Assembly (NCBI RefSeq): GCF_964355755.1
Contig: NC_092676.1
Span: forward strand, 27,882,288 to 27,946,287
DNA from: Antedon mediterranea
Lineage: Eukaryota > Echinodermata > Crinoidea > Comatulida > Antedonidae
Length of the DNA: 64,000 bases
Reading direction: 5' to 3'
How positions within the stretch are numbered: the stretch's first letter is position 1; every line of letters starts with the position of its first letter. The translations under genes and the position numbers were made by a program. Positions 191 through 63,781 of this stretch are shown piece after piece. The notes below the pieces were generated by a model. That model did no database searches. It was given only the letters and a program-made list of their open reading frames with translations, and was not told the DNA's origin.

Positions 191-3100
191 CGTTTAACTA
201 TCTCGAGTCTGGCGTTGAACGAGAGACAGACTCTATCCGTAAAGTCAAGTTCCTCTTCTACCTGCTTATCTTCATACACTTACTGGCGTGTGCGTGGTAC
301 TTCAACGCATGTCCGCCGATCACGACGACGGATGTGCCTGCCGACCGCTTCAAAACCAACATTCATTATTGTTACACAAATTCATGGACGAATTATACGG
401 CACTAGATTTTCGTAAGTTACAAATAGAAATAATTTATTTTTCACATTTGTTTAAACTTAATTATTAGAAATATGTTTTGATAATCCAACCATTATCAAG
501 GTTCTGGTGGTATAACGACAATAAGACGTAGGTCCACTGTACACATCTAGCCCATGAACCTAGTACATCTTTCAAAACGAGTATGGGGTTACCCCGATTT
601 ACTAGTTTTCACCCAACCACTATCACACACAGACAGTTATCATAACTCATCATGAGGGCCCCTTGATTGTCACGATACGCTCTATATATAAATAACTTTG
701 AATAAATAAATAAAAGATATTCTAATAAATTGTGTTAGATCCAATAGCAATTAATCCAATATTATTATTCTGTGATGTATAGTTTCTTTGGCTATTTGTG
801 AATAAGAACATTAACATTTCAGTAGCAATGAAACCTAATGTCCTACTGCTAAAATATTATTTAAACTAATAATGATGAATATCTTAAATGTTCTTTATTT
901 TGAAAATGATATTATCATAATGATATTTTGTAGAAACTTAAGGTTGCAATCTATAACAACTTCACTACCTTGTACTGTATTATTTATTCAGTTATTCATC
1001 CCCTAGTGTAGCGGATTATTCTCGTTGTTACATCGTAATTCCTTACAAATTATACTGGATATAAATCAACTGTACCAAGATACCCTGTGCTTCCGTAGCG
1101 TAAAGAGATATTAAATAAAGATCAATTATAAATTATTGGCTTATTTACCAGATGAAAATTACTTAATTTATGTGTGATTTCTTTTTAAACATAATTCTCT
1201 TTTTGTGAGATCGTTGTTGTTACTGACATTTTTCAAACCTCATATTTAAAAAAAGTTCTAGAAAAAGAGTATTAATTTATGTTTAAAAAAAATATAGTTC
1301 ACCTTGTCATCTGCCATTTGGCAGGTCCATGCCAATTTGACATTTTTCAAACATCATATTTTAAAAAAGTTCTAGAAAAAGAGTAATAATTTATGTTAAA
1401 AAATATAACATAGGTGTAAATCAAAAAGCTCAACAGAAAAATAAGTGTAATATATCTATGAAATATTCTACATGTGAAAATTGAGCTACTAAGTTTAATA
1501 TGTATTTTTATCAGGTACAAAATCATATATATAAAAAAAGTTCTAGAAAAAGAGTAACAATTTATGTTTAAAAATACAGTACTGTATAGCATAGGGTAGA
1601 TAAAAAAGCTTAACAGAAAATAGGTGTTAATATATGATTTCTTGAGATGTGAAAATTGAGTGAAGCTGTTTAATATTTTTATCAGGTACAAAATCATATT
1701 AAAAAAAGTTCTAGAAACAGAGTAACAATTTATGTAGGTAAGTAAGTAGGTAAAAAAGCTAAGGTGTTAATATATATATGATGTCTTCTACATATATTAT
1801 TATATTTTTATCAGGTACAAAATCAATTGGCGTTCAGTACATCATCAGTCTGTACTGGGCTTCAGCCACAGGAGCGTCTGTAGGATATGGCGACATTCAC
1901 GCAAACAATGTCAATGAGGTATTCTTCAAGTTTAATAATTTAACAGTTTTTATAGCAAAGTTAATAACAAACAAATCCTCCATAAAAATGTAGACAAAAG
2001 TAAAGAAAGTGAGTTTTGAGAAGTTTTTTGCTTGTCTTCTTTTAAATTCAATAGATGAATAGTTTCAGTGGATTGCTGAGGTACAAATAACTTTAAAATA
2101 ATGTTGTGGTCTAAAGGCTTGAGGCTTGTCATCTAGTGGTTGTGGGTTCAAGTCTCATTACCCAAAAAGTATGCAAGTAAATGTACTAAATATGCAATGC
2201 AATTACAAGAAAATATCCAATGCAAGAAGGCCAAAACATCAATTTAATCATTATTTTTTTTTTTTTTTTGCTTAGATGGTGCTAGCCTTATTGTCGATGA
2301 TAATGGGTATTGTGTTCTTTGGCTACATCATTGCTAGCGTTGCTGCTAGCTTGGCCAATGCTGATGCTCAACGTGCCCGATACCAAGAGAAATTAACAGC
2401 AGTTAAACGATATTTAAAAGTAAGAAATAATTATCATCATTTTTTATAATAATTTATTCATCAAAGTTTATGAAAGATTTCAGAAATACGTTAATTTTTC
2501 TTTAAAAAAAGAAGGTATCTTAAGAGGTGAACTAAAGCACTAGGCTATAAAGCTCTGTCTACACATTTTGTGTGACAAAAATGTGCCCATGTGTCAATCA
2601 TTCAATCAAAATTAACATTTATTTCTAAAATGGTGGCGTCACCAATAGAGCAAAAGCTTGTGTCAGGGACGCCAAAACAAAACATTCAAAAGCAAAAAAA
2701 ACATATATAAAACACAGAAATGAAAATATGGACATGATAATGTAATATCACTATCATATTTGTGCATATCACTACTACTATATTTGGACACATCTTTTTG
2801 TCAAAGTAGTTTGATAGTGTAAAAAGAGCTTTAGTCAATAAATAACAAGTCAAGTATGTAATATCCCATATCACATTCTTTAACCATTCTTGTAACATAA
2901 AAAATTGATCCGTCATTAAACATGAACAAATCTCATAAGTGCCACTTTGCTCTTAGGATCATCAAAGCAATAAGAACTTAGAACAGCGAGTCATCACGTA
3001 CTACAACTACTTGTGGCTTCGTAATAAGGGCGTTGACCCCGACTCGCTATTCGATGGACTACCTCTTTCACTGAAGGCAGATGTCACTCTGAATTTATAT

Positions 3101-6100
3101 CAAGAGATGATAAATAAGGTATGTAAATGTCAAAAAAAAGTATTTATACTATGTTAAACATTTATAGTCCAATTTAAAGTTCTTTAAAGCTAAAAAAAAT
3201 ATATGTAAAGGTGATCGTATAATAAAATAGACAAGTTCGGTTTGCTTTTTGTCATTATTATCTGTTTTTCGTAAACCAGCAAAGTATATTAAAACGTAGA
3301 CTTGCCCCAAGTCTGTATTTAATGTGTCTTTTTTATGTTAGTCTTCTAGTCTGCGTTTAAATTTGCGAGCACAAGTATTATACGTATGAACCGCCATATG
3401 TGCCATTTATCTTTGTATCTTATTAAGTCTAGAACCTAGGCTAATTAAAACATTACTAACACAGCTCAGGGTTGCAGTTCAAGATAGTTTATGTTTATAG
3501 TTCAACCTCCAACATCTTAATAATAATAATATGTTTGAATACAAATCAAGTAAAGCTCTGTCTACACTATCAATGTGTTTGTTTGATGTGCCAAAATATG
3601 GTAGTGATATGCTTTAAATATGGTAGTGATATGCTTTAAATATGGTAGTGATATGCTTAAATATGGTAGTGATATGCTTAAATATGGCAGTGAAATGCTT
3701 AAATATGGTAGTGATATGACATCATCATGTCCATGTATGAGCACGTCACATAAGGATTGATAGTGTAAACAGGGCTTCGGATTATGAACAGTTATTAAGC
3801 TCTTTCTACACTCTCAAACATTATGTGACAAAAAAAATGTTATATGCCCATATATGCACATGATGATGTCATATCACTGCCATATTTTGGCACATCACTA
3901 CCATACATGGGCATGCCACGCTTTTTTTGTCAAAATAATTTGATAGTATAGACAGGGCTTGACGGTTTCAGAGTTATGATTTAAAAATGTGGTTTATTTT
4001 CATCTTTGTCTTGAATTGTTATTACATTAAATAATAAAACGCAAACACCTAAATCAATCGCCATCTTACAATGTACGTTTACTTAACAAAATGTGATACA
4101 TGACATCGATCGGTCGGTTCATTTGTTTCTGCAGTAAATCTCAATTTCTTATGCATTTATAATGACAACCAGACTAGCTCTCTTTTTCCTCAGAGCTACA
4201 GCAATCTGGTTTATTCAATTCTTTATATGTTTGTTCATGATTGAATCCAGGCTGTCTAGCCTAAACTTAGGAAAATATAACCACTAGATATATGTTTTTA
4301 CTAGATAAATGTAGATATATCTCTGTTGGGAAAAACTGGGGATAGGAAAGTGGAGGTGGTAAGTGAGGAAAGCGGAGGTGGTGAGTGTGGAAGGAATGGT
4401 GAGGGAATGAATGGAGGAAGGAAGTCAGAGGCGGTGAGAAGAGTGGAAAAGGGGAGGGGTGAGAGGAGGCTTTTGGCTCAGATTTACCACCAAAATAACA
4501 ATGGATAAAGCTATTGGAAATTGTTTTCAATGCCTAAATAAAAATAGAATAATTCATAAAACGGTGTTAACGATAATAGAAATAAAATTAATATTATTAA
4601 TAATGATGACAATACATCATGACATCCATCACGAGAATGTAGTTACAAATAACCCATAGAATAATTAATTTGTCAGAAACATAGATTGGTTGCCATGACA
4701 ATAAATGTAATCACAGAATCAGTGGTGTTCCTGTGTGTAACAGTCATTTATACACCCTAAGAAAGTTGTTTTTAACAAGAGCAAGATATACGGTCACTTA
4801 CCATCAGAATGACTTATTAGTTTAGAACCATAATTAATCATAGCTATAATGGTTTGTTCTTTTTTCTAGTCTTTTTAAGAATAGTTGCGTTCAGAACATT
4901 AGCGTTATTAATGCTTCCTTCTCTCGACAAATTAAGTTGTAGAAATCAAAGCAAAGATGAAAAAGTAAACAAAAATTAGAAATTTCATCCTGATTAAAAT
5001 CCATCATGCTGTCAAGAATATTAGTAAGATTGTTTTGGATCTCAACCTTGGAAATCAATTATATTTCAAAATGATTGTTGATTTCACATCCTACAATGTG
5101 AGAGGTTTTTTTGATGTCAGTCGGTTAGGGTACCTTATTAATTACAGTATAGATAGGAAATTACCAAAGTATGAAGTGCTAAGTGGGTCAAGTTTAGGTC
5201 AGGTTTAACAGAGACTTAATGTATTGATGTTTTCATTGGTAAAGTTGCTACAATCGTATTTCCATTGGCAAGGTTATATGACTATACAAAATACATCACT
5301 GAGCATTAATAATAATAATAATAACTTGAAATATGCAGAAAGATGCTTCAAAATCAAAACATCTTTTTTTTTTTTAGTTTTTGTAAACTTAAATTCTTAG
5401 GGCCTTGTGAAAAAAGTCTTTTGCATGTTCCGCTTCAGCTGATTCGCTTAAGAGGTTCTTTCAATTCGCATCGTTTCAAATTGTGACTCTAAATATTCAA
5501 AATATTCATTTTGTATTTTGTAGTTTTTAGTCAATTTGATTAAAATTATAGGATAAATTTATAATATATTATATTTATTTATAGGTACCTCTGTTCCAAG
5601 ACAAAGAAGTTGGTTTTCAGAAAATGCTGTCCATGTGTATGCGACCCGTTCTTTTCCTTAGTGGTGAATATGTAGTGAGGAAGTTTGACTTTGGAAAAGA
5701 AGTATGTATATACCTATTTTGTTTTACTGTTTTGTGTATTGTCAATTTTTTTTTCATATTTTATACGCATCGAACAGCGAGCACAAACTCATCATCAATT
5801 ACAGGATGGATAAACTTTTTTATAATTTATCGTGTACTATTAATAAACTAGTATCATTTAAGGTAGTGAAGTTGAGTCGTGAGTTTTAACCCTGGCACTA
5901 GGTCAGGATTGAACCATTGACCTTGAGATTGGAAGGCAAGCATGTTAACCACCAAACTACAGCTCAATTTACAAATGACAGGATGAGAGCAAGAGGATAA
6001 CCCTATTATAGAGGTCTAGGGCTTGTTTCCATAGGGGTTTCCTGTTTTGTACATTTTATTATCAATTGTTAATACTGATGAATAATAATAATAGTTCATG

Positions 6101-9100: not shown

Positions 9101-12100
9101 TTCAACAAAAACAATTATTTCACTTATAAAAAGACAAAAACAGTTAGTTTTAGCCAAAAACCCTTTATATTAAATTTTTTTTAGGAAAATAATTTTTTTT
9201 TCGATTCAGTTTTTTGTCAAAGTGAATAACTATTATGTGACATTAAAATGGCATATCAAAAAAAAAAATGTAAAAAAAATTATTTTTTAGGACAATATAT
9301 CTTTAAGTAAAGCGTGTTAAAACAATTTTTTTTTTTTATTTTGATTTATTGAAAGAACAGTAGAACCTGCCTCTACTAAATGTTGACTTATTAACAATAT
9401 CTTGTACTATGATTAAGTTTTTATTCTTGGTTGAAGATATGCAAGTAACCAAGTGAAAATTTGTAATCATTCATATTCTTTTGGGAGACTTTCCTTTCAC
9501 GCAACACAGAACACGTTAGCTGACTGTAATTTGTTGTTTTATTAGGCAGCGATTTATACACCTGAGTACAGGCCTTTTGACAAATCACTCGTAATGATCT
9601 ATTTTAGGGTGGCTGCCTTAATGGCAATTTATCATGTGAATTTATTGTTTAGCTGAGATTAAACATTGTGTGCAGTGAGTAGTGGATATGAAATGAATGA
9701 TAAATTGTACAATTCCCCTACTGACTATTTATTACATTCGCACGATAGATATATTGAACATGGACTGTAAATAGGTATATGTTAATGTTATTAATGTTGT
9801 GACTTAGGTACAGCCACATGGACTGCCATTTTAAAATTCGACATATACAATTCTGTCCCTCACAATAATTATTTTCTGCTACTCATCTAATTCAAAATGT
9901 ATTCAACTAGAGAACCGTTTTAATGCCATATACAATATGTACAGTATATAATTAAATAGTTAGTTTGAAGAAAATTGTCATGAAAACAATCATAAAACAT
10001 AAAACATAAAAAACTAAAGCTATTTCTACACTATCAAACTTCATGTGACAAAAAAGTGTGATGTGCTTATATATGGACATGATGATGTCATATCAATACC
10101 ATATTTGGGCATATCACTACCATATTTGAGCATATCACCACCATATTTGGTCATCAAAAATGACTAAACTCTTTAACACAGATAGCGTGCCTGTTTATTT
10201 ACTCCTGCACAAATTAGCATCGTTGTCGCTCTTTTGGGATAGCTTCATTTCACGCTACACAGCTTCTGCTAGGCTATAATTTACTATATCTTATTAGGTA
10301 CCAATTTAATCTCATAAGTAGAACGTTAAAAGTATGGTAGACCTAGTTTCGGTCAGTAATTAATGTAGTGAAGAACATTGTATTTGTATATACTGTATTA
10401 GTTTAAAGGTGGTTTAGATGCTAGGTTACCAATCCCAGGGTCCTGGGTTCAAATCCTGTCAGATTCCAGGATTTTGTTCTCATGACAAAACAACTTCACT
10501 CTTAAAGACTTGTAATAAGACTTGGTCTGTGTATACTATATGTTTGTCTAAAGTGGTGATTATTTAAGGGGGCGGCTACTTTATTAGCCACTAGCCTTAA
10601 CAGCTTTGTGGCTATCTATCCCAAAGGATGGGGTTTTACTGTTCTGTAAAAGCCCATCTTCAGTATTAACTTATCCTAAAGAATTTATTCACTAAAACTC
10701 TGTCACTATCAAACTAGTTTGACAAAAACAATGTGCCCAAATATGGTAGTGATATTCCCAAATATAGTAGTGATGTGACATCATCATGTCCATATATTGG
10801 CACATCACATTTGTTGTCACATAAAGTTTGATAGTGTAGACAAGACATAATATCATGATTTTGTGTAATTTATTTTCTTTTTTATGTTGTTTTTCTGCAG
10901 GCCTGCTTTCAAGTGTCAAGTAATTACATACTGGTATTCAGTTATGTTTCTGAAGCTGTGTTTGTCTTTGAGGTAAAGTTTTTTATTAAATCATCATTCA
11001 TTAAAGATGGATGTATTGTCCTCCAAAAACATGAAAAATGAAGATTAATAAAATCAGACTTTGAATATGCCATTTTGTAGTTTTAATCAAGTGAATCACT
11101 TCTGTAGAAAAAAAAATGCAGAAAAAAATAATGTTTTCACTTATAAAATGACAAAATAAACAGTTATTTTCAACCAAAACCCCATTGGCTGGCAGCCAAT
11201 TTGACTATTATTTGCTTTAAATTACAGTTTTTTCAGGTAATTATTCTTTTTTTCGATCCAATTTTTGAGCAAAATGGAATAACTCTTATGTGACATTAAA
11301 ATGGCATATTCAAAAAAAAATGTGAAAACAAAAATTATTTAGGGGGACAATATCTTTAAGCACACAATGTCTATAATTGTATCATTTGAAATAATAAGCT
11401 GGCGGTTAACGTGCTTGCCATCTAATCCCAAGGTCCAGCGTTCAGTCCTGTTTAACTCTACCCTCTAAGCCTCAATTTAGTTTATAAGCACGACAAATTA
11501 TAAAATAGTTTATCCATCCTGTAATTGACAAGTTACTTGTTGGATGTGTATGAAATAAAACAATAATAATACCAAAAAATTGCTTGTCATTTATCATCAC
11601 TATCAAACTATCAATACCAATTGACCTTTAAAAAATGGTTGGGTCATGATAAAATGATCCAACGTGATTCCTTGTTAGTATGCCACTGGGTGAATTGTAG
11701 TATGTGCAGCCTAGCTTTGGGATATAAGTAACATTAGGCATCCATGTTACATATCACATATATCTTGACAATGCCGCTCTTGTCTCTATTTGTTGTCAAA
11801 ATTCAAATGCAAAGATTTGTTTCACATTTTTACTTCTTCATCCAAAATCTTATTCTTTTGATTGTACAACTAAAGCTCTGTCTACACTATCAAACTTTAT
11901 GTGACAAAAAAATGTGATGTGCCCATATATGGACATGATGATGTCATATCACTACCGTATTTAATCATATCACTACCATATTTGGGCATATCACACTTTT
12001 TTGTAAAACTAGTTTGATAGTATAAACAGAGCTATTGTTATAACATAAGATAATTCTTTATTCTTATGACCACATATATAGGTAAACATGAACATTTGGT

Positions 12101-15100
12101 TTTTCTTAATGCTTGAAAACACATATAATGTACAGTACATAACATAAGACAGATAAAAACTTTGATTCTATAGAAATCTACAGTAATTTAAAATGTTTAG
12201 TAAAATTTCATGCAGTTTGAAGTAAATTTGGTCTGAGAACTAGACGCAGAATCGTTTGCAGTTACAAAATGACAAATTTCCAAAAAACTATTGGATGAAT
12301 AAATATATTATGTTTATTACACAGATTTATGTAAAATTCCATGTGAGCTGTGCCAACGAATACGGAGATTTAGAGCGAGATTTTAATAAGGTGTACAAGT
12401 CGTATTTGAAAAAGAAAAGTGGTTTCATCTTAGACGTGGTCGCTGCTCTGCCCCTAGACATCCTTGCACTTGCCGGTGGGGACAACAAGCAGAAGTTTCT
12501 AGCGTTGACTATTCTAAGACTGATCCACTTAGTGCGTCTCTACAGGCTCAGTGAATTCTTCAAATCCTGGGAGACTGAGCTTAATATCAAGTGAGCAGAG
12601 CTTTTGTTTACTATTTTATATTTTAATTATTAAGTAGTATCATACATATTTGATTGTAGTCCCACACTGGTTTTAAGCTCTGTCTACACTATTAAACTAG
12701 TTTGACAAAAATGTGTAATGTGACCAGATATGGTAGTGATATGACATCATCATGTCCATATATAGGTACATCACATTTTTTTGTCATATAAAGTTTGATA
12801 GTGTCGACAGAGCTTTAAAGTTGACATTTTACATTTTTTCCCCTGCCTCATAACCTTGGTGCTTCAGAAAAATTACTAAGTTCATGTTTGTAAATGGTAA
12901 ATTTATTTACACATTTTATAAACTACTGTAATACTATATTGTCTTATTTGTTCTCTTTCAGTGTTTTCCATGTCCGTATGACCAAATTCTTTGTAATCTT
13001 GGTGATTGTCATCCATTTCTTTGCCAGTCTCTGGTACCTATTAGCCTGTCCAAACAAAAAATGCAAAAAAGAGTCCTGGGCAGCGTACAATGGTATGTAG
13101 TCTCCGTCGTTCTTTCTACTCTATCAAATTTTATATGATAAAATAAAATGTGATTTGCCCATATATGGACATAATGATGTTATATCGCTACCATATTTGG
13201 GAATATCACTACCATATTCACACTTTTTTTGTCAAACTAGTTTGATAGTGTGGACAGAGCTTTAAACATAATGACATGTATTGCTACAATAATGTAAAAT
13301 AGTTTTTTCATTTCTTTCATTTTCCATTTATTTATTCATGGTCGTCAAACACAATAAAATATAGTACATAGTTTGTTTAAGTTAAAAAGTTAAAAATTCA
13401 CACTACACAAAAATGATGTTAAAATTTAACTAGGTTAAAATTCGGTAAAATACAGATAAAATACATAGCAAGATTGGTGTGTGTAAAGGGTATAGCATTT
13501 TGTAGGGACGTTTTTATAAAGCCAATGTCAATACAAAAAAAATACAATTTACCCTCGAATAAAGGTCCCTTTGATGATAATGGAATAGGCCCCAGATGCC
13601 AAAGTATCCTTTGACATTTCTGATGTTTTTCTTTCTGTTCTTTTGATGTGATGTAAAGTATGTTACAATTGGATACTACGATATGTGCTGTCTTTTATTT
13701 CACCTCAAGGGAAATGTCTGATGTGAAACTATTCTACTAAAACTGCTCATTATATTTCAATATTATTATAATATCTATCTATACCATGTAATAAGCAATA
13801 TGATATACATTGTAGTATATTTTATGATATTAAACATGAAAATATTAAATTCATAATGAGTTATGCACAGAATCGATACTAAAGATATTAATTTTTCAAT
13901 TACCATCAACTTTTTTTTTTCATTGTTTAATTCTGCAGTGTTTTATATATTAATATGTCAAGTAAGTAGATGTAATTTATCTAAAGCTCTGTCTACACTA
14001 TAAAACTTTTTATGACAAACAAATGTGATGTGCCCATATATGGACATGGTGATGTCATATCACTACTATATTTTGGCATATCATTACCATATTTGGGCAC
14101 ATCACACTTTTTTTGTCAGACTAGTTTGATAGTGTAGACAGAGCTTAACAAAAGGTATCTGTGAGTTAACACTACATATCCGCAACAGAAATTGAATTTC
14201 AAAATAAAACTCCTTCATAACAATTTCAAAATCTGTCTACATAATAGTATAGTTTCTCTTATTTTTTTGTTTGCATTAAAATGAAGATATTTTGTTTTGT
14301 CATTAGGGTATTATTATGAGAACCCAGAAGATAAACCAAAAATGTATGAATTGTATGTATACTGTGATTGTATATATTGGTGTGTAGCAACACTGACATC
14401 AACAGGGTATGGAGATATACATGCCTACAGTACTGTTGAAATGGGTAAGTTAGAATAACAATATTTAAGCTCCGTCTACACTATCAAACTAGTTGGACAA
14501 AAGAAGTGTGATGTGGCCAAATGTGGCAGTGATATGACATCATCATGCCCATATATATCACATTTTTTTGTCACATAAAGTTTGATAGTGTAGATAGGGC
14601 TTAGGTTCATCTTTCAAATATGAATAAATGTAGACCATAGACAATATTATATTTAATAACATTAGTGTAAATGATGCAAAACGAAAAAATTTAACAAACA
14701 AAATATATTATAAGATCAACATTTAACTTTATTATAAAACAATTCACATCATTAATTTCAATTCATCTATTCGTCTTTTATTTGTCTAATTCATATAAAA
14801 ATATAAATCAGAAAATCTTTGTTAATACACTTAAGTTTAAAATACATGTACAATGTTTAAAACGATAGAAAGGTACAGATATAATTTAAAATTTAAAAGT
14901 TATAAAAAAAGAATGTGTATAAACAGTAAAAATTTGGCAAAATTGATAAAAAGTATATTTCAAATTATGATCCAGGTGTTCATTTGAGTGAAAACAAAAA
15001 TGAGTTTTAAAAACAGTCTTTTTATAAATATGTTAGCTAAAATAATGCATTTTGTATGCAGTGTTTGCAAGCTTTGTGATGGTAGCAGGACAAGTCTTGT

Positions 15101-20560: not shown

Positions 20561-21060
20561 AATACTATTATTATAACTCGTTACTATGACCAGTGAAGAC
20601 TGAATTTCACTCTTCCCTGCTATATGACACCGTATACATAAGATGATTACAACATAATATATATAATCATAAAACAATAATATAATCACACAATAATAAT
20701 AAGTACAGCAGTATCTAACCATAGCGAAAAATAATTTAAAATACATTACAATATTCTAGCTACAATTAAAACATTTCAATTATGTAATATATATATAATA
20801 AAACAAATATTTCAAATAAATACATCAAGGTGATTCAGTGCTCTCAAATTAAATATTCATATTTTTGTCAATATTTTACAGATAAAATTATTAATTTAAA
20901 TAATGTTATCACTCCCAGAGGATTTTAACCAGATAAATAATTGTATGGTAGGTCAAAATAAATTTCAGCATATTACAATAAAAATATTACAGGATACGTT
21001 TAACAAAACATGTTGATATCAGCTGGACACATCGATATTCTCTAAATATTGCATCTTTTC
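20560..21060. other. AT-rich intergenic sequence
   Basis: I see no gene, repeat family or clear signal here beyond AT-rich simple sequence. Confidence 0.6.
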
Positions 21061-21069
21061 TTCCTGCAT

Positions 21070-37020: not shown

Positions 37021-37111
37021 GAGACACGCCCTCTCAAGTCTCAAACATTTTCTCTTGAGTATAGGGAGTTTATACAGAGCCTCGTTTTGAATATTTATCG
37101 ATATTGATTGA

Positions 37112-38365: not shown

Positions 38366-38501
38366 TAAGCTCTGTCTACACTACCAAACTTATATGACAA
38401 AAAAATGTGATGTGCCCATATACGATGATGTCATATCACTACCATATTTGGGCACATCACATTTTTTTTCACATAAACTTTGATAGTGTAGACAGAGCTT
38501 A
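38366..38501. mobile_element. MITE-1 copy 16
   Basis: TAAGCTCTGTCTACACTACC and TTTGATAGTGTAGACAGAGC. Short core, one of the few intergenic copies. Confidence 0.9.
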
Positions 38502-49400: not shown

Positions 49401-52382
49401 ATAGTTTCTTAAGTTTTTGTTGACTAAGTTAGCTATACTTACTTGAAATAGCTTGCTTAGCATAGCCTCTCCCTCTTTGTTTCCAAGCAAATTGATTATC
49501 ACCTGACCACCATATTGAACTTTTAGTGTACATAAATGCCTGTGAATTTTATAGACAAATTATTAACAGTTAAAGCTCTGTCTACAAAAATGTGATGTGC
49601 CCAAATACGGAAGTGATATGGCTAAATATGGTAGTGATATGCCCAAATACGGTAGTGATATGACATTATCGTGTCCGTATATGGGCACATCCCATTTTTT
49701 GTCACATAAAGTTTGATAGTGTAAACAGAGCTTAACACTCAATAATCATAGTGGAAGTTTCTTTGAGTGGGCTTATATTATAGTAGGGTGGGATTATACA
49801 CAGATCAATACATGATTGTAAATTAGACTATGTTATTATATTACATATTATATATATATATTTAATGTATGCATAGAAAATGAAATGAAACACAAAATGA
49901 AAGTACAAAATGAAAATTACTTGAAATAAAAAATGTCACAAGTTAAACCAAATACTGATTTGTAATTACCTATCAAAAGCTGGAGCCGAAGCCTCATATC
50001 CTCGTGACATCTTGACCTTGTGTGACCCCACTTGTAAACCAGGCTGTTCCCAGTAAAGAGGAACCGACCCCCTCGTCTGGATATATGATGTCATCTTATC
50101 TTCTAAATATATTACCTGAAATACAAAATGAACCTGATAAGAATCTGTCTATTACTATCAAATTAGTTTGACCAAAAAAAGTGTGATACAGTATACCCAA
50201 ATATGGTAGTGATATGCTTAAATATGATAGTGATATGACATCATCATGTCCATATATGGGCACATCACATTTTTTTGTCACATAAAGTTTGATAGTGTAG
50301 ACAGAGCTTAACATTGTATATAATCTACAGTAATAAACAAAACTGCAGTAACTGCATTAGAATAATTTTAACAATCCTACGAACCTGTTCAGTTTCACAA
50401 AAATTGGCAACATGCCCATAATCGTTCGTGCCCCTGACATTGAACCGAGTGCCGACACGTTCGCAGCTCAGACGTGAGATGATGCACGCTTTTGCGAGAT
50501 GACTCCCACAATAGATTGTCTTGATCTCGACACCTCCGCACATTGTTACTAACAGCCATTTGGTACAGTCTACATTGTAACGTTTTAAATGAAGGTGTAA
50601 GGTCCTATTCCTATAATATATATAAACAAAATCTTTATAATCTTATCAAACTTGGTTAGCAAAAAAATCATCTATCATTGTTTTAATCAATTATTTTTAA
50701 AATCATTTTTTTAAAATAATATACATAGGCAAATGTTTGTGCAAATAAAAGTTTATTACTTATAATAAAAAGAACTTGTTTGATAATAAAGCTTTAGTTT
50801 TTTATCACTTTACGTAATGGTTATTTATCTATTCTTGATTTAAGCAAAAAGATTGTTGAGCCAGCCCTGATCAACAAATTCAAAGAATAATAATATGGTC
50901 AACTCCAATTAAAAAAAAGATATTTATGTAATAAATAAAGAGAATATCAAAGGTACTCAATGTCAGTACACAAAAATAAACAAAAAATAAACAAACCAGA
51001 AAAAGCGGTTATCAGTGCTGTGAGACTGTTGTTGGCGCTGTGCACACAGCGTAAGGTCAAATCTTTCTTCCGCAGTAGACGAATATGTGAAGTAAAATGT
51101 GCCGGAGTTGAGAAGTTTTCGTACTTCTGCTATGCGCTCTTCATCTGCTTGATTGTTTCTCAGTGAGATGAATGATGTAGCAGTAATTCGAAACACCTCG
51201 GTGTTGCCGATCTTTCCTAGAGACACGGTTCCTGTCACCATGACAAGGTACAGGACAGTTTCATCACCTTAAAAAATTAAAATTGTTGTTAACATACTAA
51301 GTGATAATTATTACTTATCTCTTTTTGAATGTTATAAGCTCACAGTACAGTACCAATTCAACCTAGTTACATATCAGCACGTATGACCTTGAATAATAAA
51401 CTTACATAAATTTTCTAAAACTCTGGCTACAGTATCAAAGTTTATGTGAAAAAGAAATGTAAGGTGCCCTTTTATTGACATGATGATGTCATATCACTAC
51501 CATATTTGGGCACATCACATTTTTTTGTAAAATTAGATAGTGTAGATAGAGCTTGAGTTTATATTAACAATACATTGGGGTTATTCTATTGATGTAAGAC
51601 GATAAAGATGATGGCAACAAAAATGACAAACAATGTCAAGATGATGAAAATGATGTAGATGATTTAATAAATGGAGAGAATCGATGATAACAATTAAAAT
51701 AGATTATTGATGACAGGGATGATGATAAATTTAAATTTAAAAAAAAAGGAATCCATCAGAAAATATAAACATCCTGTATGTATTGACCATGGAGGTATAA
51801 TACCTCCATGTATTGAAATTGGTTGATTTGATTTATTTCAGCATCATAAAAACAATTAAATAAAATACAATGGTTGAATTGGTTGATTTATTTTATCATA
51901 CCTGTATTGAGTTTAAGTATTCCCAGACACCCATAAGCCTCAAGAATCTTCTCATATTGTTTTTTCAATGAATCGACCTCAGAATAACCTTGAAATAAAA
52001 CAGATATTACTCATTCATATCATAACTTCAATATTAAATTTATTAAATAATGTATTAAAAGAAACCAAAAAAATAGCTTTAACAATAAATAATCCTACCA
52101 CAAGGTAAAACGTTTATCCATTAATTCAATAATAAAAACAAATTTTCAGGAGCTGCTGGATAAATATAATAACAGGCTAGGCCTAGCTGATAATGATTTG
52201 TGCCCGGGGCTGAAATGTGTTTGCCAGGCACAGTGCAATAAAAATCAAACGTCGCACCTACCCAAAATCGCAACGACGTCCGATTCAAAAAGTAAAGATT
52301 CTTCGATATCTGTTGATTCCAAAATGACAGAATATGGTGGCTCAGTCTTGTGGAAAACTCTAAATGACTTTCTCATAGACAT
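40493..52382 (-). CDS. SYNJ1: Synaptojanin (Sac + inositol 5-phosphatase), complete, 21 coding exons, 1455 aa
   Basis: Exons (high to low): 52262-52382 (ATG), 51902-51988, 50997-51267, 50385-50610, 49970-50115, 49443-49539, 47771-47943, 47378-47459, 46676-46825, 46213-46378, 45506-45694, 45093-45195, 44860-45000, 44414-44606, 44082-44240, 43626-43782, 43412-43496, 42925-43134, 42483-42730, 41469-42160, 40493-41164 (stop). Total 4368 nt in frame. It removes phosphates from phosphoinositides during clathrin-vesicle uncoating. The N-terminal Sac domain carries the CX5R(T) active site [10 protein letters not shown]. The central 5-phosphatase has [30 protein letters not shown] and SDHRPV. An RRM-like domain (exons 42925 and 42483) follows. 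The last two large exons encode a proline-rich tail (PPPRP, PPGRP words), with one NPF motif in the last exon, the usual EH-domain ligand. The invertebrate gene precedes the SYNJ1/SYNJ2 split, so the symbol is approximate. It is head to head with ILVBL. Confidence 0.95.
41232..41320. mobile_element. MITE-1 copy 17, left half lost
   Basis: Core TATATGGACATGATGATGTC and right end TTTGATAGTGTAGACAGAGC only, in the last synaptojanin intron. Confidence 0.82.
42278..42410. repeat. 21-bp tandem repeat inside a MITE-like end pair
   Basis: GAAACCCCACCCCTATTAAGA is repeated about four times, followed by TTAATAGAGTTCTACTGTA. A similar word (CCTTGATAGAGGTTCTTAA) lies near 17610, so this may be a diverged DNA element with internal amplification. 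Confidence 0.65.
43800..43970 (-). mobile_element. SINE-3 fragment
   Basis: Shares AATGCGCTGCACATTATTAC and AATGCAGCTAGTAATCAG with 47950-48237 and 6080-6330. The tRNA-like head is missing. Confidence 0.6.
44635..44786. mobile_element. MITE-1 copy 18
   Basis: TTAAGCTCTGTCTACACTAT and AGTTTGATAGAGTAGACAAG, between synaptojanin exons. Confidence 0.9.
45272..45422. mobile_element. MITE-1 copy 19
   Basis: AAAGCTCTATTTACACAATC and TTTGATAGTGTAGACAGAGC. Confidence 0.9.
46508..46662. mobile_element. MITE-1 copy 20, next to an exon
   Basis: Shortened left end AAAGCTCTGTTTAACAGAC and right end TTTGAAAGTGTAGACAGAGC. It ends 13 bp from the synaptojanin exon 46676-46825, directly beside its donor. Confidence 0.88.
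47950..48237 (-). mobile_element. SINE-3 copy
   Basis: Body and head are as in 6080-6330; the head contains a diverged GGCACAGTGTGTTGGATTC on the minus strand. Confidence 0.68.
48768..49321. mobile_element. MITE-2 copy b (longest form)
   Basis: TTAAAGATGTTTTGTCCC and GGGACAATACATCTTTAA ends. The inside is like 7689-8123 with an extra segment near 49050-49140. Confidence 0.85.
49572..49733. mobile_element. MITE-1 copy 21
   Basis: AAAGCTCTGTCTACAAAAATG (left end shortened) and AGTTTGATAGTGTAAACAGA. Confidence 0.88.
50141..50310. mobile_element. MITE-1 copy 22
   Basis: GAATCTGTCTATTACTATC and AGTTTGATAGTGTAGACAGA, 26 bp from the synaptojanin exon ending at 50115. Confidence 0.88.
51416..51555. 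mobile_element. MITE-1 copy 23
   Basis: AAAACTCTGGCTACAGTATC and TTAGATAGTGTAGATAGAGC; both ends diverged. Confidence 0.83.
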
Positions 52383-52838: not shown

Positions 52839-55800
52839 ATGATCGAATATTTGTTAGCTGGATTTGCTCTGTTAATTGTTATTCTATTAAATTTTCTAGA
52901 ATCACATCTTGGTATTATATTTCAACTTTTTCACAAGGTACGTCTAGGCCTAACATAACTAGGAGGCTAGGGCTAAACAACTAAAACGAAAGGCCTAAAT
53001 CGAGGGTAGCACCTGACTCTAGCTAGGCAGGCTCATACATTACTATGGCCTATATATAGAGGTTCATTTTAAAATATAGCTCTGCCACGCTAAAAAGAAA
53101 AGAAAGGCATTGGCTGTGCCTACTAGTAAAGTAGGTTGTTTTTGTTTTGGCAATTATAAACTATTGTATTATTGTTTATTAATTAAAGCATAGACCTATC
53201 AATTTAATTTATATATAGATAACCTATATGCTACATGATGATTAAAAGGTCTGCATGATGAATAAACAATAGTCAATTGTTAGGATTGCGTAACACCACG
53301 TGTCCAAAAGGAAATGAAGTATTGTATTCATAAATACATATATGCAATCATACTGTATAATCCTGTGTTTAATATAATAATTCATCATAGTGTATTTCCT
53401 TTTGAACTTTACTATTAGTCAATTGTTTATTGTTTAACAACAATGCCTCCTTTGTCTTCTTTTTGTAGAAAATCAATGATGCATGACCATGAAATTTAAG
53501 AAGAATTTATTTTTTTTAATAATTTTTTTTTCCATTTTTACAGGCAGATGCAGACTCTCCTCGTAATGGTGGAGAACTTGTCGCGGCTGTCCTAAAAGAA
53601 CATGGAGTCAAGTATTTATTTACACTTTGCGGTGGACACATATCCCCAGTTCTTGTGGCGTCGGAAAAGTGTGGCATTCGTGTAGTAGATGTTCGGCATG
53701 AGGTGCACATAAAATTCTTTTCATGATTGTTCTGCATCTTACAAATTAACCATTAGTGTAATAACAAAATTATAAGTACATAATTTACGTTTGAAATACA
53801 TTTTCTACATTCCTCATTGTGTATAAGTAATTTGCATATATGAATCCAAAGGCAAATTACTGAAAATAATGACAATGTTGTGGGTATTAGTGGCTGGATC
53901 TCAATGGAGATACAAAATAAAATAAGCAAAAATGATAAAGACAGCCAGAAAAATTAGCAGAGATTTCGGTTGCATATATGATGTGCAAAGTAATTTGCAT
54001 ATGGTGTACCTAAGTAATTTGCATATGATGTACATTTGTAATTTGCATAGAGGTGCCATAATTTTCCCAATTTCTTGACCCTCACTTCTTCAGTAAATGA
54101 CACCAAAAATAATGACATTTTTTAACAGGTGACATCAGTATTTGCCGCTGATGCAGTCGCAAGACTCTCCGGTACTGTCGGTGTTGCCATCGTTACAGCT
54201 GGACCCGGTCTAACAAATACAATCACTGCCGTTAAAAACGCTCAAATGGCTGAATCACCTGTACTTCTAATGGGAGGTGCTGCCGCAAACTTACTTAAGG
54301 TAAATTACTTACAGTTATTTATGTTGATATACTGTATAAGGAGAATATTTACAATATTAATAAAATGATTTTCGTTTTTTTTTTCAGGGTCGCGGGGCTC
54401 TTCAAGACATTGATCAAATGTCGTTATTCAAACCATTATGCAAATACTGCGGCACGATCAAGCGTGTCCGTGACATTGTACCGACGGTACGCAAAGCTCT
54501 GGCCATTGCTCAATCTGGTACACCAGGTAACAACCATGTTATTTAAAGCTCAGTTGTCTACCCTATCAAACCAATTTGACAAAAAAAGTGTGCCAATTAT
54601 TAGTGATATGCCAAATTTGGTATTGATATGACATCATCATGTCCATATATGGCCACATCACATTTTGTTGTCTGATAGTGTAGACAGAGCGCAAGGCTAT
54701 AGGTTTTTCAGTACACCATCACTCACTTTGCACCATTACTTTTGATGGATTTTAAAACCCTTTTTGTCATTTTTTCAGGTCCAGTGTTTGTTGAATTGCC
54801 GATCGATACACTTTATTCATACCAATCTGTCCAGAAAGAAGTTGGAGGAGGAGGCGGTCCCAAAAAAGGTCTTGTCAATAATATTCTGTCATGGTAAGCC
54901 AATGAATTGTGGGTAAGAAGTAGCACAAGCCAAAATTGACTTTGGAAAAGCACAAATATTTATCAAGGGTTTTAAATTTGTTTTACAGGTATTTGAACAA
55001 TTATGTATCAAATATGTTTGCTGGAGCATTTGATAGCCAAGATGTTACACCATTGCCTGTGGATCTACCTCTTGCAACGGAATCACAAGGTACGCTGTTA
55101 TTGACCTACTGTGACCTTCCAAAAGTGTCCCTTACCTGTGATGTCCCAAAGGTTCCCCTCTTCATAGATCTATCTGGCAATACTAAAGAAAGTTATGGGA
55201 TAGACAGATGATATTCAAAGGATTTAACTTAAATTGATGTTTTTTTTTTCAATTTTTAGTGCAATCAGCAATTGAGATTGTAAGTAGAGCTAAGAAGCCA
55301 GTTTTAGTACTCGGAAGCCAGGCAACACTGCCCCCAGTTCCAGCAGATCAGATTCGATCTTCCCTCGAGGTAGAGTAAATGATTTTTTTAATTCAGCAAC
55401 CAGGGAGGAAATATCTATATATTTCCTCCATGGTACAACTACTAATTTGTGAATAAACTTATGTAAAGCTTTAATTAAAATGTATCAACTTATTCGTTCA
55501 AACTGTAACTGTTATAAAATATTACATATTTTAGACAATGGGGATACCATGTTTCCTGGGAGGAATGTCTCGTGGCATGCTGGGAAGGAACAGCGATATT
55601 CACATAAGACAAAAGAGACGAGATGCACTCAGAGAAGCAGACGTTGTAGTGTTAGCCGGTACTCTATTTCTTTGTTATTTAAATCAATAAAAATCATCTT
55701 TTCTCTAGTGAGAAATGATTCATATATAGTGTAGAATTTAGTCTACTTGAATTTACAACTATGCTATACAGTAATTACAATTTTTTTGCATTTTAGGAGC

Positions 55801-57590
55801 TGTACCAGATTTTCGTTTAAATTATGGTCGTCATTTAAGTAGAAAATCGAAAATTATCGCAGTAAATAGAAATAAGGAGCAACTGTATAAGGTATGCATT
55901 CAATCAATAATACAAACCAAACCTCATGGTCAAAGGGCTAGAGTATTGGGTCAACTTCCTAAAGCTTTGTCTATATTATCAAACTTTGTGACAACAAAAT
56001 GTGATGTGCCCATATATGGACATGATGATGTCATATCTCTACCATATTTGGGCACATGACACTTTTTTGTCAAACTATTTGATAGTGGAGACAGTGCTTA
56101 TTTATTTAGGTGATATTTTTCGTTGCAGAACACTGATGCATTTTGGAAGCCTAGCCTAGCTGTTCAGGCAGACGTTGGCAGTTTCTTGTTGTCTCTACAA
56201 AAAGGTCTAAAAGACTTCAAATGTGATGAAGAATGGGTGAAATCATTGAAGGCAAAAGATCAGGAAAAGGAGGACTCAAACAGGCAAGGAATATTAATTT
56301 ACAGTCTACAGTCACTGGGCATGAATTTGGTCCGACCACTGGACAGGAATCCAATCTCAGTAGCTTTACAGTCTACAGTCACTGGGCATGAATTTGGTCC
56401 GACCACTGGACAGGAATCCAATCTCAGTAGCTTTACAGTCTACAGTCACTGGGCATGAATTTGGTCCGACCACTGGACAGGAATCCAATCTCAGTAGCTT
56501 TACAGTCTACAGTCACTGGGCATGAATTTGGTCCGACCACTGGACAGGAATCCAATCTCAGTAGCTTTACAGTCTACAGTCACTGGGCATGAATTTGGTC
56601 CGACCACTGGACAGGAATCCAGTCTCAGTAGCTTTACAGTCTACAGTCACTGGGCATGAATTTGGTCCGACCACTGGACAGGAATCCAATCTCAGTAGCT
56701 TTACAATGTTCAGTTACGAAAATATGGAACAAAAAACGCAATATGATAGTTTTCTACTTGCATTTTTTTCTTATGAACGCTCTATTTTTTCTATCGTTTT
56801 AGGAAGAAAGCCGCAGAACCTGTGAACAAGTATCTTAATCCTCTTCAAGTACTTTACCATGTAGAGTCTACGTTGGACGACAACAGCATCTTAGTGGCTG
56901 ATGGTGGCGACTTCGTCGGTAGTGCGGCCTATATTGTCAGGTACAGTATCTATCTATACTTCTTGGCTTCTCTAAAATGAATCACATACAGTATTATATT
57001 GTTATTTGTTTTGTCATGATTTTGTTTTTTATTTTTTAGGCCCAGGGGTCCAATGCGCTGGCTTGATCCAGGTGCCTTCGGTACACTAGGAGTTGGAGGT
57101 GGATTCGCTTTAGGTGCCAAGCTGGTGAGGCCAGATGCCGAGGTCTGGATCATGTACGGGGATGGATCACTTGGGTACAGTGTAGCTGAATTTGACACTT
57201 TTACTCGTCATAAATGCCCCGTGATAGCTGTGGTTGGTAACGATGCTTGTTGGACGCAAATTGTTCGGGAACAGGAGCCGATGCTGGGGTCAAGAGTTGG
57301 ATGCGACCTCGCTGTAAGCTGTTTAGATTAAATACATATTAAATATATACTGCATTGTTTTTAAACTTTAAAAAGAATTACTAATTCTAATTTCCATTTC
57401 CTAGTTCTGTGATTACGATACGGTTGCGAGAGGCTACGGTGGTTATGGACTGAAGCTGTGTGGTGAGGAAGGTGAAGATGTACTGAAGACACTCCAGTCC
57501 GCTCAGAAGCTCTGCAAGGAGGGACAACCTGTCCTAGTTAACTGTCTGATTGGTAGAACTAACTTCAGGGATGGATCTATCTCTGTTTAA
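52839..57590 (+). CDS. ILVBL: ILVBL-like 2-hydroxyacyl-CoA lyase / acetolactate synthase-like protein, complete, 13 exons, 621 aa
   Basis: Exons: 52839-52937 (ATG), 53544-53702, 54129-54299, 54388-54526, 54779-54893, 54989-55089, 55260-55369, 55535-55658, 55797-55891, 56129-56283, 56803-56940, 57040-57313, 57405-57590 (stop); 1866 nt in frame. It is a thiamine-diphosphate enzyme; the vertebrate protein (HACL2) is an ER membrane 2-hydroxyacyl-CoA lyase acting in fatty-acid alpha-oxidation. A hydrophobic N-terminal segment (residues about 4-22, [16 protein letters not shown]) fits the ER anchor. The catalytic glutamate sits in VVDVRHE, followed by [12 protein letters not shown] and TAGPGLTN. 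The C-terminal cofactor motif is GDGSLGYSV...GND, and FRDGSI is at the end. The length is close to the human 632 aa. The junction 56283/56803 uses a GC donor (AACAG|GCAAGG). ILVB of bacteria is only a distant relative. Confidence 0.96.
54544..54691. mobile_element. MITE-1 copy 24
   Basis: TAAAGCTCAGTTGTCTACCC and GTCTGATAGTGTAGACAGAG, starting 18 bp after the ILVBL exon ending at 54526. Confidence 0.85.
55960..56100. mobile_element. MITE-1 copy 25
   Basis: TAAAGCTTTGTCTATATTAT and ATTTGATAGTGGAGACAGTG, ending 28 bp before the ILVBL exon 56129-56283. Confidence 0.87.
56297..56708. repeat. 67-bp minisatellite, six copies, in an ILVBL intron
   Basis: ACAGTCTACAGTCACTGGGC then ATGAATTTGGTCCGACCACT and GACAGGAATCCAATCTCAGT. 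Copies start about every 67 bp from 56313. They begin 13 bp after the GC donor at 56283 and fill most of the intron. Copies are nearly identical, so the array is recent. Confidence 0.93.
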
Positions 57591-58286: not shown

Positions 58287-61194
58287 TTAGAGAAATGACG
58301 CCATTGCTTGCCACATGTCTTTTGCCTGTTGTTTTCCTTTGGCGTCGCCATCATAATCAAGCGTATCTCCATGCCACGCACCGACGCCGCGTAGGTTACC
58401 GATCTTTGCATAATCATATCGGTACTTTAGACTTTCTGGGTCGTCGTACCACATTTGATGCATTGCTCCCGTTTCAGCGCTCTATACAAATAAATTATTT
58501 CAAATCATTTGCAAAAAAATGTAGATGTACAATAGCAGTGGGTGTGAATTCAGTTTTAATTCACACAACATACACAATATATATAAATAATAATAAAACA
58601 TGAGTGTGTGTGGAGATTACAATAAGCCATAGCATGGCTTTAAGTCTGAACCTCCAGATAAAACAGTAATTTATCAAGTGAATAACATTGTTCTACCTGA
58701 TGCATAAGAAAAATCAAAAGGATGAAGTATGGTACTAGATACCAAAAGTATAGACTATTAAACAAGTGTATACCTTATATTGGAAGTAGGGTGCTGCATA
58801 TGTACTGTTCCACTGCCGTCCTGTTGTTGAACTTGTACTTAAAATCTTCTGTATATAGCGATACTCCACTTGTTTGCCAGCTGCATCGCTACAAGGTACT
58901 CCACGAAATGGTATCTTCTTGATGCTGCATACATCCTCCTAAACAACAATCAATGATAACAATACTATTGTACTGATAACAGATTTTGTACACAAATTGG
59001 ACAGCTAAAGCTTTGTCTACACTATCAAACTTGTTTGACAAAAAAAGTGTGTCTAAATATGGTAGTGATATGACATCATCATGTCCATATAAATGGACAC
59101 ATCCCATTTTTTGTCACATAAAGTTTTATAAGGTTAAGCGTCAAACTTACCTCAGTTAAAGTTACACAAGGGTAATCATACCCATACCAAGGCACACCAA
59201 GCACAAGTTTATAAGGTGAAATTCCCAGTTTTATAAACTTTTCAACACCTACAACAAAAATACAGAATCTGTTGTGAATAAAAGAAAGTGTATATCACAA
59301 GGAACTTATTCCTCTTTTAGTTTGATTCAGAATTGTAATTTAATTTTTAGCACTGTTAAAAATAGTTAAATAGTTATATAACTACTTTTTTTTTGCTTTT
59401 TTACTATTACAGTAGAGATAAAATGAAGTAAATTATGAAATAATTTAAATAAAGATCACAAACCACTAGCTGTCTTATTGTATGGTGAGTTTGCCATGGC
59501 AATACAGTCACCGTATATCTGACTCTGCTCGTCGTATGACATCACAAACACAAAGTCACATGCATCTGCAATATCTTTGTAGTTATAGCAACGCTTGTCA
59601 ATGCAATCAGGTGACCAAGCAACATCAGTGGTAACCTGAATAATGTATAATTGAATGATAATTAATTTTTTTACTTTCATTTGCGCCATCTGCATATCAT
59701 GGATTAGATTTCAAAAGATACTATCAATAGTGAAGCTCTGTCTACACTATCAAACTTTGTGTGACAAAAAAATGTGATGAAAATGTTATATATGTGAACT
59801 TTATTCAATCAATCGTACATTTGTTATAATGGTAACCACAATAAGATATAATATTACAGTAGATTTTTACAAAAAAACAAGACCAATATAAATATTAATT
59901 ATAAAATATATACAATGATTATTTACAGTAATGATAATAATAAAAATTAATTGTTTATATTGAATATTATTGGAAACAGAAGTTGAATAATAAAATACTG
60001 GAAAGTTTAATTAGAGGTTTACAATCAATGGAAAAGATGAAAACATATAATATTGTGATATACCAATAATGGACATGATGTTGTCATATTACTACCATAT
60101 CTGGTCACATCACACAATTTTTGTCAAACTAGTTTGATAGTGTAGACAGAGCTTTAGCAAGTTAAAAAAGTACCTGTGATCCAGGTATCATTTCATGAAA
60201 AACTAGGGTAGTCTCTGCAACGAGTTTTGTAAGTAACGGTGCATCTGATTTGTCCAAAGGATCTTCAATATCGATGTTGATACCATCCATAAACTGATCC
60301 TGAGCCAGCTTAACTTGCTGCGTTATCCACAAATTGGTATACGTTGAATTATTCAGTTGGTCTGCTGATACAACACCTTTAAAAAGTAAACAACTGATAG
60401 GTTATCATAACTTAGTCTACTATAAAAATAAAGAGAATTGAATTGAATTCTTTTTCTTTTCACAACCAACATGCACACACAATCCTGATTCAATTTCTCA
60501 AGTTCTTACTACACTTTTATATTATTTTATCATTAATTTATTATTTAGTATAAACATATTTTTGTTTTTATACCAATAGACCCTATGCACCATTTCATGA
60601 AAAAGTGTACAGTTTTGAAACCATTTATTTTACCATATTTATAAATTAAAATTAGAACCTTATAGCTGAAAAGGGATACCTTTCAATACAACCCTTGCTC
60701 CGTGTGAGTGTGCATAGCACATCAGATCAGGGTCATATTTCCCAAACATTGCAACTGTTGTAACTATTGACCAATCATAGCTCTTCCAGTCTGATCCGCC
60801 AAGTTGGAATATGAAAATCTGAAAAATAACAAACCTCAATATAGCCTACCACTAGAGTGCACTGGACAATATTAAAATGTGGGTGACCAATAAATGAAAT
60901 ATCATATGCACTGTAGATGTTGATGCTGATGCATGGCTGTCACAGGCCAGGACCATCATGCTGCATGTGGATTATGATGATACCTACAAGGTAGGTGCTT
61001 GTTTCGCAAATTGTTGCCTGGCTGATGATACGCCGAGGACGAGGTTGCCTCCTGGAACTTACCTCTTTTCTTGGAGAACTAGATATTGGTTTGCAAAGGG
61101 AACTATCAGAGCAAGGACAAGAGGTCGAACATATGACCAATGATATCATTAATTTAATAATGCTCAAAACGAGCAAAAAACTCCGGTTTTTCAT
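58287..61194 (-). CDS. CTBS: Di-N-acetylchitobiase-like (GH18) gene A, complete, 7 exons, 367 aa
   Basis: Exons (high to low): 61063-61194 (ATG), 60680-60818, 60174-60376, 59464-59635, 59151-59248, 58774-58938, 58287-58481 (stop); 1104 nt in frame. The lysosomal enzyme removes N-acetylglucosamine from the reducing end of N-glycan core fragments. The N terminus is hydrophobic (LLVLSIIKLMISLVIC), a signal peptide, followed by the family's cysteine start CPCSDSSLC. The GH18 active site DGINIDIE is intact, with acid/base Glu and the DxD aspartates. Further family words are MSYDEQSQIYG, GVPWYGYDY and PFRGVPCSDAAG. Near the C terminus the usual GMWN is GAWH. The donor after exon 60174 (GTAC) is weak but required by frame. 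The length is near that of vertebrate CTBS (385 aa). Gene B (61729 on) is a divergent paralog with the same exon phases. Confidence 0.95.
59006..59130. mobile_element. MITE-1 copy 26, right end decayed
   Basis: TAAAGCTTTGTCTACACTAT at the left; the right end stops at AAAGTTTTATA. It ends 20 bp from the chitobiase A exon 59151-59248. Confidence 0.82.
59732..60155. mobile_element. MITE-1 copy 27, interrupted by AT-rich insert
   Basis: Left part 59732-59790 (AAGCTCTGTCTACACTATC) and right part about 60055-60155 (TTTGATAGTGTAGACAGAGC). About 265 bp of AT-rich sequence, unlike any other repeat here, separates them. The element ends 18 bp from the exon 60174-60376. Confidence 0.8.
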
Positions 61195-61254: not shown

Positions 61255-61266
61255 ATAACAGTTCTA

Positions 61267-61728: not shown

Positions 61729-63781
61729 ATGGATTCCTTTTGGCTCCCTGTGAGCATCATCCTTTCTATTTTATCATCCCCCGTCTTTAGCTTGACGACT
61801 TGCCCATGCTCAGATAGTTCTCTCTGTAATCCAGTCAGCAGTCCTCCAAGAAAAGAGGTAAGAAATAATATATTATTGTAGGCAATTTATGAAATATAGA
61901 TAGTGGTGCAATAATAATGCAATTATAGGCCTATTCGCAAACATGCAAATTTATTGTCGGCCTATTTTATTTACCGCCGAAGCCGAGACTAAATTCAACT
62001 CTACAGTTTAATGCAGGTGATGATGACGGAAATTGTTATGATTTTTTGGGGGTTTCTTCTTGTATAAGCCTGCTTTTAAAATTAAAAAATATGATTTTAG
62101 ATTATGAAATAGGCTAACACTCTGGCAATTATAGGTTTTAGTATTCCAGCACCGAGGAACGTTATGGAAGAGCTATGATTGGTCAATAGTTACAACAGTT
62201 GCGATGTTTGGGAAATATGACCCTGATCTGATGTGCTATGCACATTCCAAAGGAGCAAGAGTTGTTTTAAAAGGTAGGCCTCATGGTTTTATTATTACTC
62301 CATGTTATATCCCAGTTGGTTGTAGTTAGCCACACAGTAATAATTGATATATGAATAAAACCCCCTCAAAGAAATAACGATAACGAAACCAGAAACAAAA
62401 GACGCCTTAAGTTAATGAAAGTAGGCCTATAAGTATAATGATGCATTATAAAATAATAAAAACAATCGTGACGTGTTGGGATTCAATGTTTCCACATAAA
62501 CTAAAGCTCAGTTCAGTTTGAGAAAAAAAAGTACCCAAATATGGTATAGTGATATACCCAAATATGGTAGTGATATGACATCATCATGTCCATATATAGG
62601 CACATCAGATTTTTTGTCACATGAAGTCATGATGTGTAGACAGAGCTTAAGTCTTAATTATATGCCTATTTTAAATCCTGACACGATGGCGATTAGCGTA
62701 TACAGCACATACCAATAACTCTGAACATAATCCATTTTGTTTTTCATACTTTTTTTGGTACTGAAATTTGACAGGCGATCTACCAGTTGCACAATTAAAG
62801 AATTCAACGTATACCAAGTTGTGGATAAAGCAGCAAGTTAAACTGGCTCAGGATCAGTTTATGGATGGTATCAACATCGACATTGAAGAGGCTTTACCGA
62901 AATCAGAAGCTCCCTTGCTAACAAAACTAATTGCAGATACTTCTAAGGCTTTTCACGAAGCTATACCAGGGTCTCAGGTACCATTTTAAAAGCTTTTCTG
63001 TTATTAATTGTATAATTTTCAGCAGGCATCATTATTAATATTATTAAAATCGTTAAAGAGGCGTTTCGTCGGGCCTCGTCGTACGATGCTGTCTGAGTTG
63101 GCCCAGTACGCTCTAATTCGAGGATTAATATAATTTTATACAGGTTAGTACTGACGTTATGTACTCCCCAAACTGCATAAATGAATGCTGTTTTGACTAC
63201 AAAGGCATCGCAGACGCATGTGACTTTCTGATGCTGATGTCATATGACGAGCAAAGTCAGATATACGGTGACTGTATTGCCATGGCAAACTCGCCATACA
63301 ACAAGACAGCTAAAGGTTTGTAGAAACAACATTTTGTAAATTACGAATTTTAAAGCATACATTGTTTCCAACGAATGGGTTTCACAAACGCATTTCGATC
63401 TCGAATTAATAAAAAGGAGAATATTAAACAGGTAAAAATGATTCTACGTGTATGTAGAAAAGGTTAGTTTCCAATAACCGCCAGAGCAGCAGGAGTTTGA
63501 AACAAACGTGTAATCGATTTTGTCCGTTAAAAAATGTTTAAATGTGCGCATTTATATCCACAAACATTTTAGTTTGGTATAAGTACAAACCGATTATCGC
63601 CACATACTAATCATTTTGTAATTAAAAATACATTTTAGTGGAAATTGTGTTCGAAAAGTGATTTAACTTTTGTATGTTTGCAGGTGTGACAGAATACCTA
63701 AAATTAGGGATTTCACCCGATAAACTAGTACTTGGCGTACCATGGTACGGATATGATTACACATGTCTCCATCTAACACAG
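61729..63781 (+). CDS. CTBS: Di-N-acetylchitobiase-like (GH18) gene B, first five exons (3' end outside window)
   Basis: Exons: 61729-61857 (ATG), 62135-62273, 62775-62977, 63144-63315, 63684-63781. The last one or more exons (two, if the structure follows gene A) are beyond the window. Exons 2-5 have exactly the same lengths as in gene A (139, 203, 172, 98 nt) and the same phases. Signal peptide (FWLPVSIILSILSSPVFSL), then CPCSDSSLC. The active site DGINIDIE, MSYDEQSQIYG and GVPWYGYDY are kept, so this copy looks enzymatically intact as far as seen. It differs from gene A where substrate loops are expected (CINECCFDY against CIDKRCYNY). Some exon parts are nearly identical to gene A at the DNA level while neighbouring parts are not. 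Confidence 0.93.
62502..62649. mobile_element. MITE-1 copy 28
   Basis: Left end shortened (TAAAGCTCAGTTCAGTTTG); right end GATGTGTAGACAGAGCTTA; core with two AAATATGGTA words. Confidence 0.8.

Follow-up and report, generated by a model that had tools for sequence, protein, structure and literature searches.

The 64,000-nucleotide stretch of the Antedon mediterranea genome analysed here (the window, C7:27882288-27946287) is densely populated by a short palindromic element that is near certainly a high-copy MITE, i.e. a non-autonomous DNA transposon. The sequence-only reading had proposed such a palindromic family, and it is upheld because the element has inverted ends, is short, lies dispersed with thousands of ends genome-wide, shows differing flanks in the copies compared and has a consensus that folds on itself. 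Regarding its mobilisation, the reading favoured here, at about even odds (probability around 0.5), is that it was moved by a transposase of the PHIS kind, most like Spy, without target site duplication.

In the window, 28 copies and one short fragment (Table 1) cover about 7.7% of the sequence, inserts included, in agreement with the tally of the sequence-only reading. The shared ends it had described are equally borne out, with 40 matches to the end AAGCTCTGTCTACACTATC at up to 3 mismatches vs. none in 100 dinucleotide shuffles, while the core GACATGATGATGTC matches 44 times at up to 2 mismatches (shuffle mean 0.48), many of these sites being counted on both strands as the core is near-palindromic. 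BLAST with a hand-made consensus returned 30 merged intervals, which therefore amount to 28 elements, since three insert-split elements give two intervals each and one interval comprises two adjacent copies. The previously given figure of one copy per 2.3 kb is right as a mean (64000/28) but hides uneven spacing (start-to-previous-end 20 to 7898) as well as a local density about five times the genome mean, namely 23 ends with 0-1 mismatch per 64 kb vs. 24,890 per 354.4 Mb.

Table 1. Copies of the MITE family in the window, with strand and supporting evidence.
Feature	Position	Strand	Evidence
MITE copy, ~145-bp insert	2550..2831	+	end match + BLAST
MITE copy, about six 22-bp units	3553..3777	-	end match + BLAST
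MITE copy, 19 bp from copy at 3553..3777	3797..3960	+	end match + BLAST
MITE copy, right end lost	10017..10138	+	end match + BLAST
MITE copy	10695..10848	-	BLAST
MITE copy	11873..12034	+	end match + BLAST
MITE copy, 98 bp from ion-channel exon match	12675..12815	-	end match + BLAST
MITE copy	13107..13262	+	BLAST
MITE copy, near consensus	13984..14146	+	end match + BLAST
MITE copy	14467..14602	-	end match + BLAST
MITE copy	15271..15456	-	end match + BLAST
MITE copy, 483 bp, broken by another dispersed repeat (17021-17333)	16943..17425	-	BLAST
MITE copy, left end lost	25323..25442	+	BLAST
MITE copy, right end lost	25987..26122	+	end match + BLAST
Isolated end-only fragment	27321..27339	.	end match
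MITE copy	31774..31929	-	end match + BLAST
MITE copy	38367..38500	+	end match + BLAST
MITE copy, left end lost	41233..41318	+	end match + BLAST
MITE copy	44636..44785	+	end match + BLAST
MITE copy, 4.8% from consensus	45273..45421	-	end match + BLAST
MITE copy, left end decayed, left limit by eye	46510..46661	-	end match + BLAST
MITE copy	49573..49733	-	end match + BLAST
MITE copy	50139..50309	-	end match + BLAST
MITE copy	51418..51554	+	end match + BLAST
MITE copy	54546..54692	-	end match + BLAST
MITE copy	55962..56099	+	end match + BLAST
MITE copy, right end decayed	59008..59130	-	end match + BLAST
MITE copy, 422 bp, with insert of ~300 bp, flanked by two exon-like conserved blocks of duplicated gene	59733..60154	+	BLAST
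MITE copy, left end decayed, left limit by eye	62504..62648	-	BLAST

Read in one orientation, the element runs from the end GCTCTGTCTACACTATCAAACT through the sub-end TGTGACAAAAAAATGTGATGTGCCC and the core GGACATGATGATGTC to one or several CATATCACTACCATATTTGGG units, followed by the inverted sub-end and end. The inverted ends, of about 26 bp on both sides, adjoin TWAA/TTWA; the element is a near-complete palindrome, with an asymmetric core GACATGATGATGTC. The CATATCACTACCATATTTGGG unit measures 22 bp and is usually present once or twice, up to six times; by fuzzy counting in 66 elements drawn from the window and the genome, two units were found in 31, one in 26, three in 4, four in 2, six in 1 and none in 2, a number that would have risen and fallen by slippage or unequal exchange. 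The consensus of the family folds end to end at -54.2 kcal/mol (DNA parameters) vs. -14.1 +/- 2.7 for shuffles (n=200; z = -14.7, none as low). The self-folding previously described thus stands at the level of the consensus, but the inside is asymmetric, the core being followed by a unit repeated 0 to 6 times. End-to-end distances range from 76 to 414 bp and fall within 110-170 bp in 58 of the 66 elements; the former range of 90-280 bp is exceeded by the insert-enlarged copies at 16943-17425 and 59733-60154. Judged by such sizes, the element has no room for a transposase gene. Divergence from the consensus has a median of 8.3% in these 66 elements, a sample of copies with well-kept ends.

None of the 11 exon stretches tested in the window (9 derived from Pfam matches, including one under the curated threshold, and 2 from a duplicated gene) overlaps a copy, and the claim that no copy lies in an exon holds for those 11. 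The Pfam matches comprise an ion-channel domain with a sub-threshold cyclic-nucleotide-binding match, a kinesin motor, a synaptojanin-like set (Syja_N, Exo_endo_phos2 and DUF1866) and a TPP-enzyme domain. The duplicated gene, presumably chitinase-like as judged by eye, consists of inverted paralogous blocks at 59457-60359 and 62792-63321 (reverse), with a MITE in one intron only; the paralogous stretch 62989-63136 is free of the copy found at 59733..60154.

Other repeats share the window. The dispersed repeat lying inside the copy at 16943-17425 (17021-17333) recurs at 37108-37429, as well as at two loci elsewhere (L026 and L034). Another family that is palindromic and MITE-like, its ends being TTAA|AGATRTATTGTCC..., is present at 8994-9307, 11010-11360 and 26676-26873; of these three copies as read, two have ATCT|TTAA at the far end and one has TTCAA. 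Tandem repeats occupy 19407-20594 (spacing of about 295 bp), 21013-21435 (about 53), 23755-24053 (about 44), 27986-28163 (about 25), 32724-33303 (about 144) and 56231-56766 (about 67).

Across the assembly (354,431,138 bases in 18 contigs, the first 11 of 22-41 Mb each and the later ones queried of at most 567 kb), 12,348 + 12,542 = 24,890 family ends were counted at 0-1 mismatch, ends inside tandem arrays included, vs. 0 in the reversed control; confinement of the repeat to this locus is thereby excluded. The copy number would be around ten thousand or a few tens of thousands. The distribution is patchy, the window being one of the dense parts; 10 kb sampled at the same coordinate of each of 11 chromosomes gave 3 copies in all, two of them incomplete. 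An exact 26-mer of the family occurs 2,834 times in the genome; among the first 100 places listed, all on chromosome 1, 37 lie in two arrays, 37 are spread over 0-15 Mb and 26 fall in 15.0-16.65 Mb. Elsewhere, 12 viral contigs have a 17-mer in common with the family, the resemblance in each being limited to at most 22 bp of the end at that site; an end 23-mer had 0 matches in genome_contigs and a core 25-mer 0 in viral_contigs, and seven end or core words of the family had no occurrence in the literature searched.

Some copies have seeded tandem arrays. At C1:410889-412384, 38 head-to-tail units of 42 bp, beginning with the element end, lead into an element fragment; at another chromosome 1 locus (L033) 5 units of 134 bp lead into a complete element. 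Besides, C1:1406556-1410628 is a head-to-tail array with units beginning with the element end, where the ends listed are a multiple of 92 bp apart in 11 of 12 cases.

Evidence on insertion comes from 54 copies retaining both ends, whose flanks were tabulated; they stem from the window and mostly chromosome 1 and were picked for well-preserved ends. Left out were the members of one array (L015-L020), repeats of the L061 locus (L063-L066), a place already covered (L076, in L034), a duplicate (L125, of L124) and copies of which one or both ends are unreadable; eight loci (L121-L128) owe their selection to a TTAA left end, a source of bias at that base. On the left, position -1 is A in 53, -2 is A in 53, -3 is A in 34, T in 19 and G in 1, and -4 is T in 48; on the right, +1 is T in all 54, +2 is T in 50, +3 is T in 29, A in 19, G in 4 and C in 2, and +4 is A in 45. 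The junction is accordingly a palindromic A/T-rich motif, TWAA^TTWA, around the element, beyond which C is preferred at -5 (20/54) and G at +5 (27/54). In the 35 clean copies, defined by TWAA/TTWA on both flanks, the other 19 being set aside, the W base is the same on the two sides in 18, and the two are independent of each other (Fisher p = 0.72; 18/35 and p = 0.43 in an earlier flank set). They agree in 4 of the 10 least diverged (<6%) clean copies, and the 18/35 would have a binomial p of about 0.0001 were 80% agreement expected. As G or C is rare at -3 (1/54) and +3 (6/54), the A/T mismatches are poorly explained by an identical duplication that later decayed. A comparison of flank columns in 49 copies, blind to an invariant TA, found no pair matching above chance (best z 2.27, 400 pairs). 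That the flanks appear not to be copies of each other speaks against exact duplication of TWA, TNA or TTAA, while a TA duplication at insertion may be compatible with these data.

These apparently non-copied flanks, together with the palindromic motif, fit duplication-free insertion as in Spy. Duplication-free insertion is rare among cut-and-paste transposons. Spy elements insert in AAATTT or AAWTT without duplication according to two sources (PMC4482050, PMC11304231), the latter of which records them in arthropods, cnidarians and molluscs only. The family resembles Spy as there described by an AAA|TTT-like junction, by inverted ends and by an apparent lack of target site duplication, exact TAAA|TTTA flanks occurring in 13/54 copies, but departs from it by a flank consensus TWAA|TTWA with C/G favoured beyond. 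The proposed course of events would be cut-and-paste by a transposase encoded elsewhere and recognising the ends of about 26 bp, perhaps a member of the PHIS superfamily (PIF/Harbinger, ISL2EU, Spy, Nuwa) and most like Spy, with Spy-like joining of the element into an AAATTT-like site without duplication. In terms of flanks, spread without an ordinary target duplication, either by Spy-like insertion into TWAATTWA or by a donor TWA overhang setting each central base independently, is put forward tentatively, at somewhat less than even odds.

The C at -5 and G at +5 are as reminiscent of the NuwaII site C|TNA|G as of AAATTT, and they raise the alternative of a PIF/Harbinger- or NuwaII-type MITE, where a 3-bp TWA or TNA duplicated within CTWAG would have had its middle base altered by repair or by an overhang-carrying step. 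TWA by each end, C and G outside it and the abundance of DDE_Tnp_4 in the genome are all as in PIF/Harbinger and NuwaII MITEs; however, the two TWA agree no more than by chance. Neither an identical 3-bp TWA as in PIF/Harbinger nor a TNA in CTNAG as in NuwaII is found, for duplication predicts near-complete agreement of the middle base and not the proportions seen in the clean and youngest copies, which leaves this explanation unlikely.

A Tc1/mariner-like (Stowaway-like) MITE that duplicates TA and whose ends, (A)AGCTC, vary a little in length is judged a little less probable again. A TA can be read by the ends in every clean flank class, and TA|AAGCTC...GAGCTT|TA is found in 13/54 copies and in 6 of the 10 least diverged clean ones; yet the bases outside TA are constrained, the shorter-end classes having T there in 10/14 on the left and A in 12/16 on the right, and matches to DDE_3, the domain of Tc1/mariner type, number only 8 in the genome.

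Insertion at TTAA by a piggyBac- or Kolobok-type element is very improbable: two other repeats in the genome end at TTAA and such transposases probably worked there, but TTAA flanks the family on both sides in only 4/54 copies, even though TTAA at the left end had been a selection criterion for some loci, and no TTAA duplication emerges. As for these other repeats, one of high copy number, read at three loci (L061, L119 and L120), ends in ...GCAGGGAAGGGGTC adjoining TTTAA in the three copies read and is present in at least 40 places (40 scored of 1104 candidates); it looks like a TTAA-inserting element. A Helitron-type element, which inserts between A and T with no duplication, or a local satellite would account for the A|T junction and the head-to-tail arrays, but is scarcely credible given inverted ends of about 26 bp on both sides of a near-complete palindrome and the 63 of 100 listed 26-mer places outside the two arrays.

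The search for a source of transposase centred on DDE_Tnp_4, which we take to be the PHIS-type domain, with at least 150 matches in the genome (150 scored of 216 candidates). The autonomous partner with the same ends envisaged by the sequence-only reading, and likewise a Spy transposase with these ends, was not found at the 28 loci examined (8 with both flanks and 20 with 0.9 kb of the 3' side). At two of them (L061 and L113) a complete MITE copy merely lies downstream of the match, an arrangement seen in 4 of the 5 places inspected for the L061 repeat family (L061, L063, L064 and L066), the fifth (L065) not aligning; in this repeat family the copy adjoins the end of a second high-copy repeat.

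Nor did empty sites come to light. The joined flanks of one copy (L021) are unique, those of L124/L125 have two places, both filled, and those of L061 match on one side only, the left flank being another high-copy repeat that ends there. BLAST of element flanks against the sequences compared gave no clean empty site, and in the paralogous gene block of the window free of the MITE the intron does not align. The tRNA-like look of a further locus (L054) was discounted, its A- and B-box spacing being too short, with no tRNA by ARAGORN and no other copy among the sequences compared.

The kind of MITE described here is well known, and its possible duplication-free insertion would be its sole unusual feature. 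If true, the thousands of copies would document on a large scale, and in nature, how targets are chosen and ends joined; otherwise, the family is an abundant MITE of a sort typical of animals, enlarging the non-coding DNA and seeding tandem arrays.
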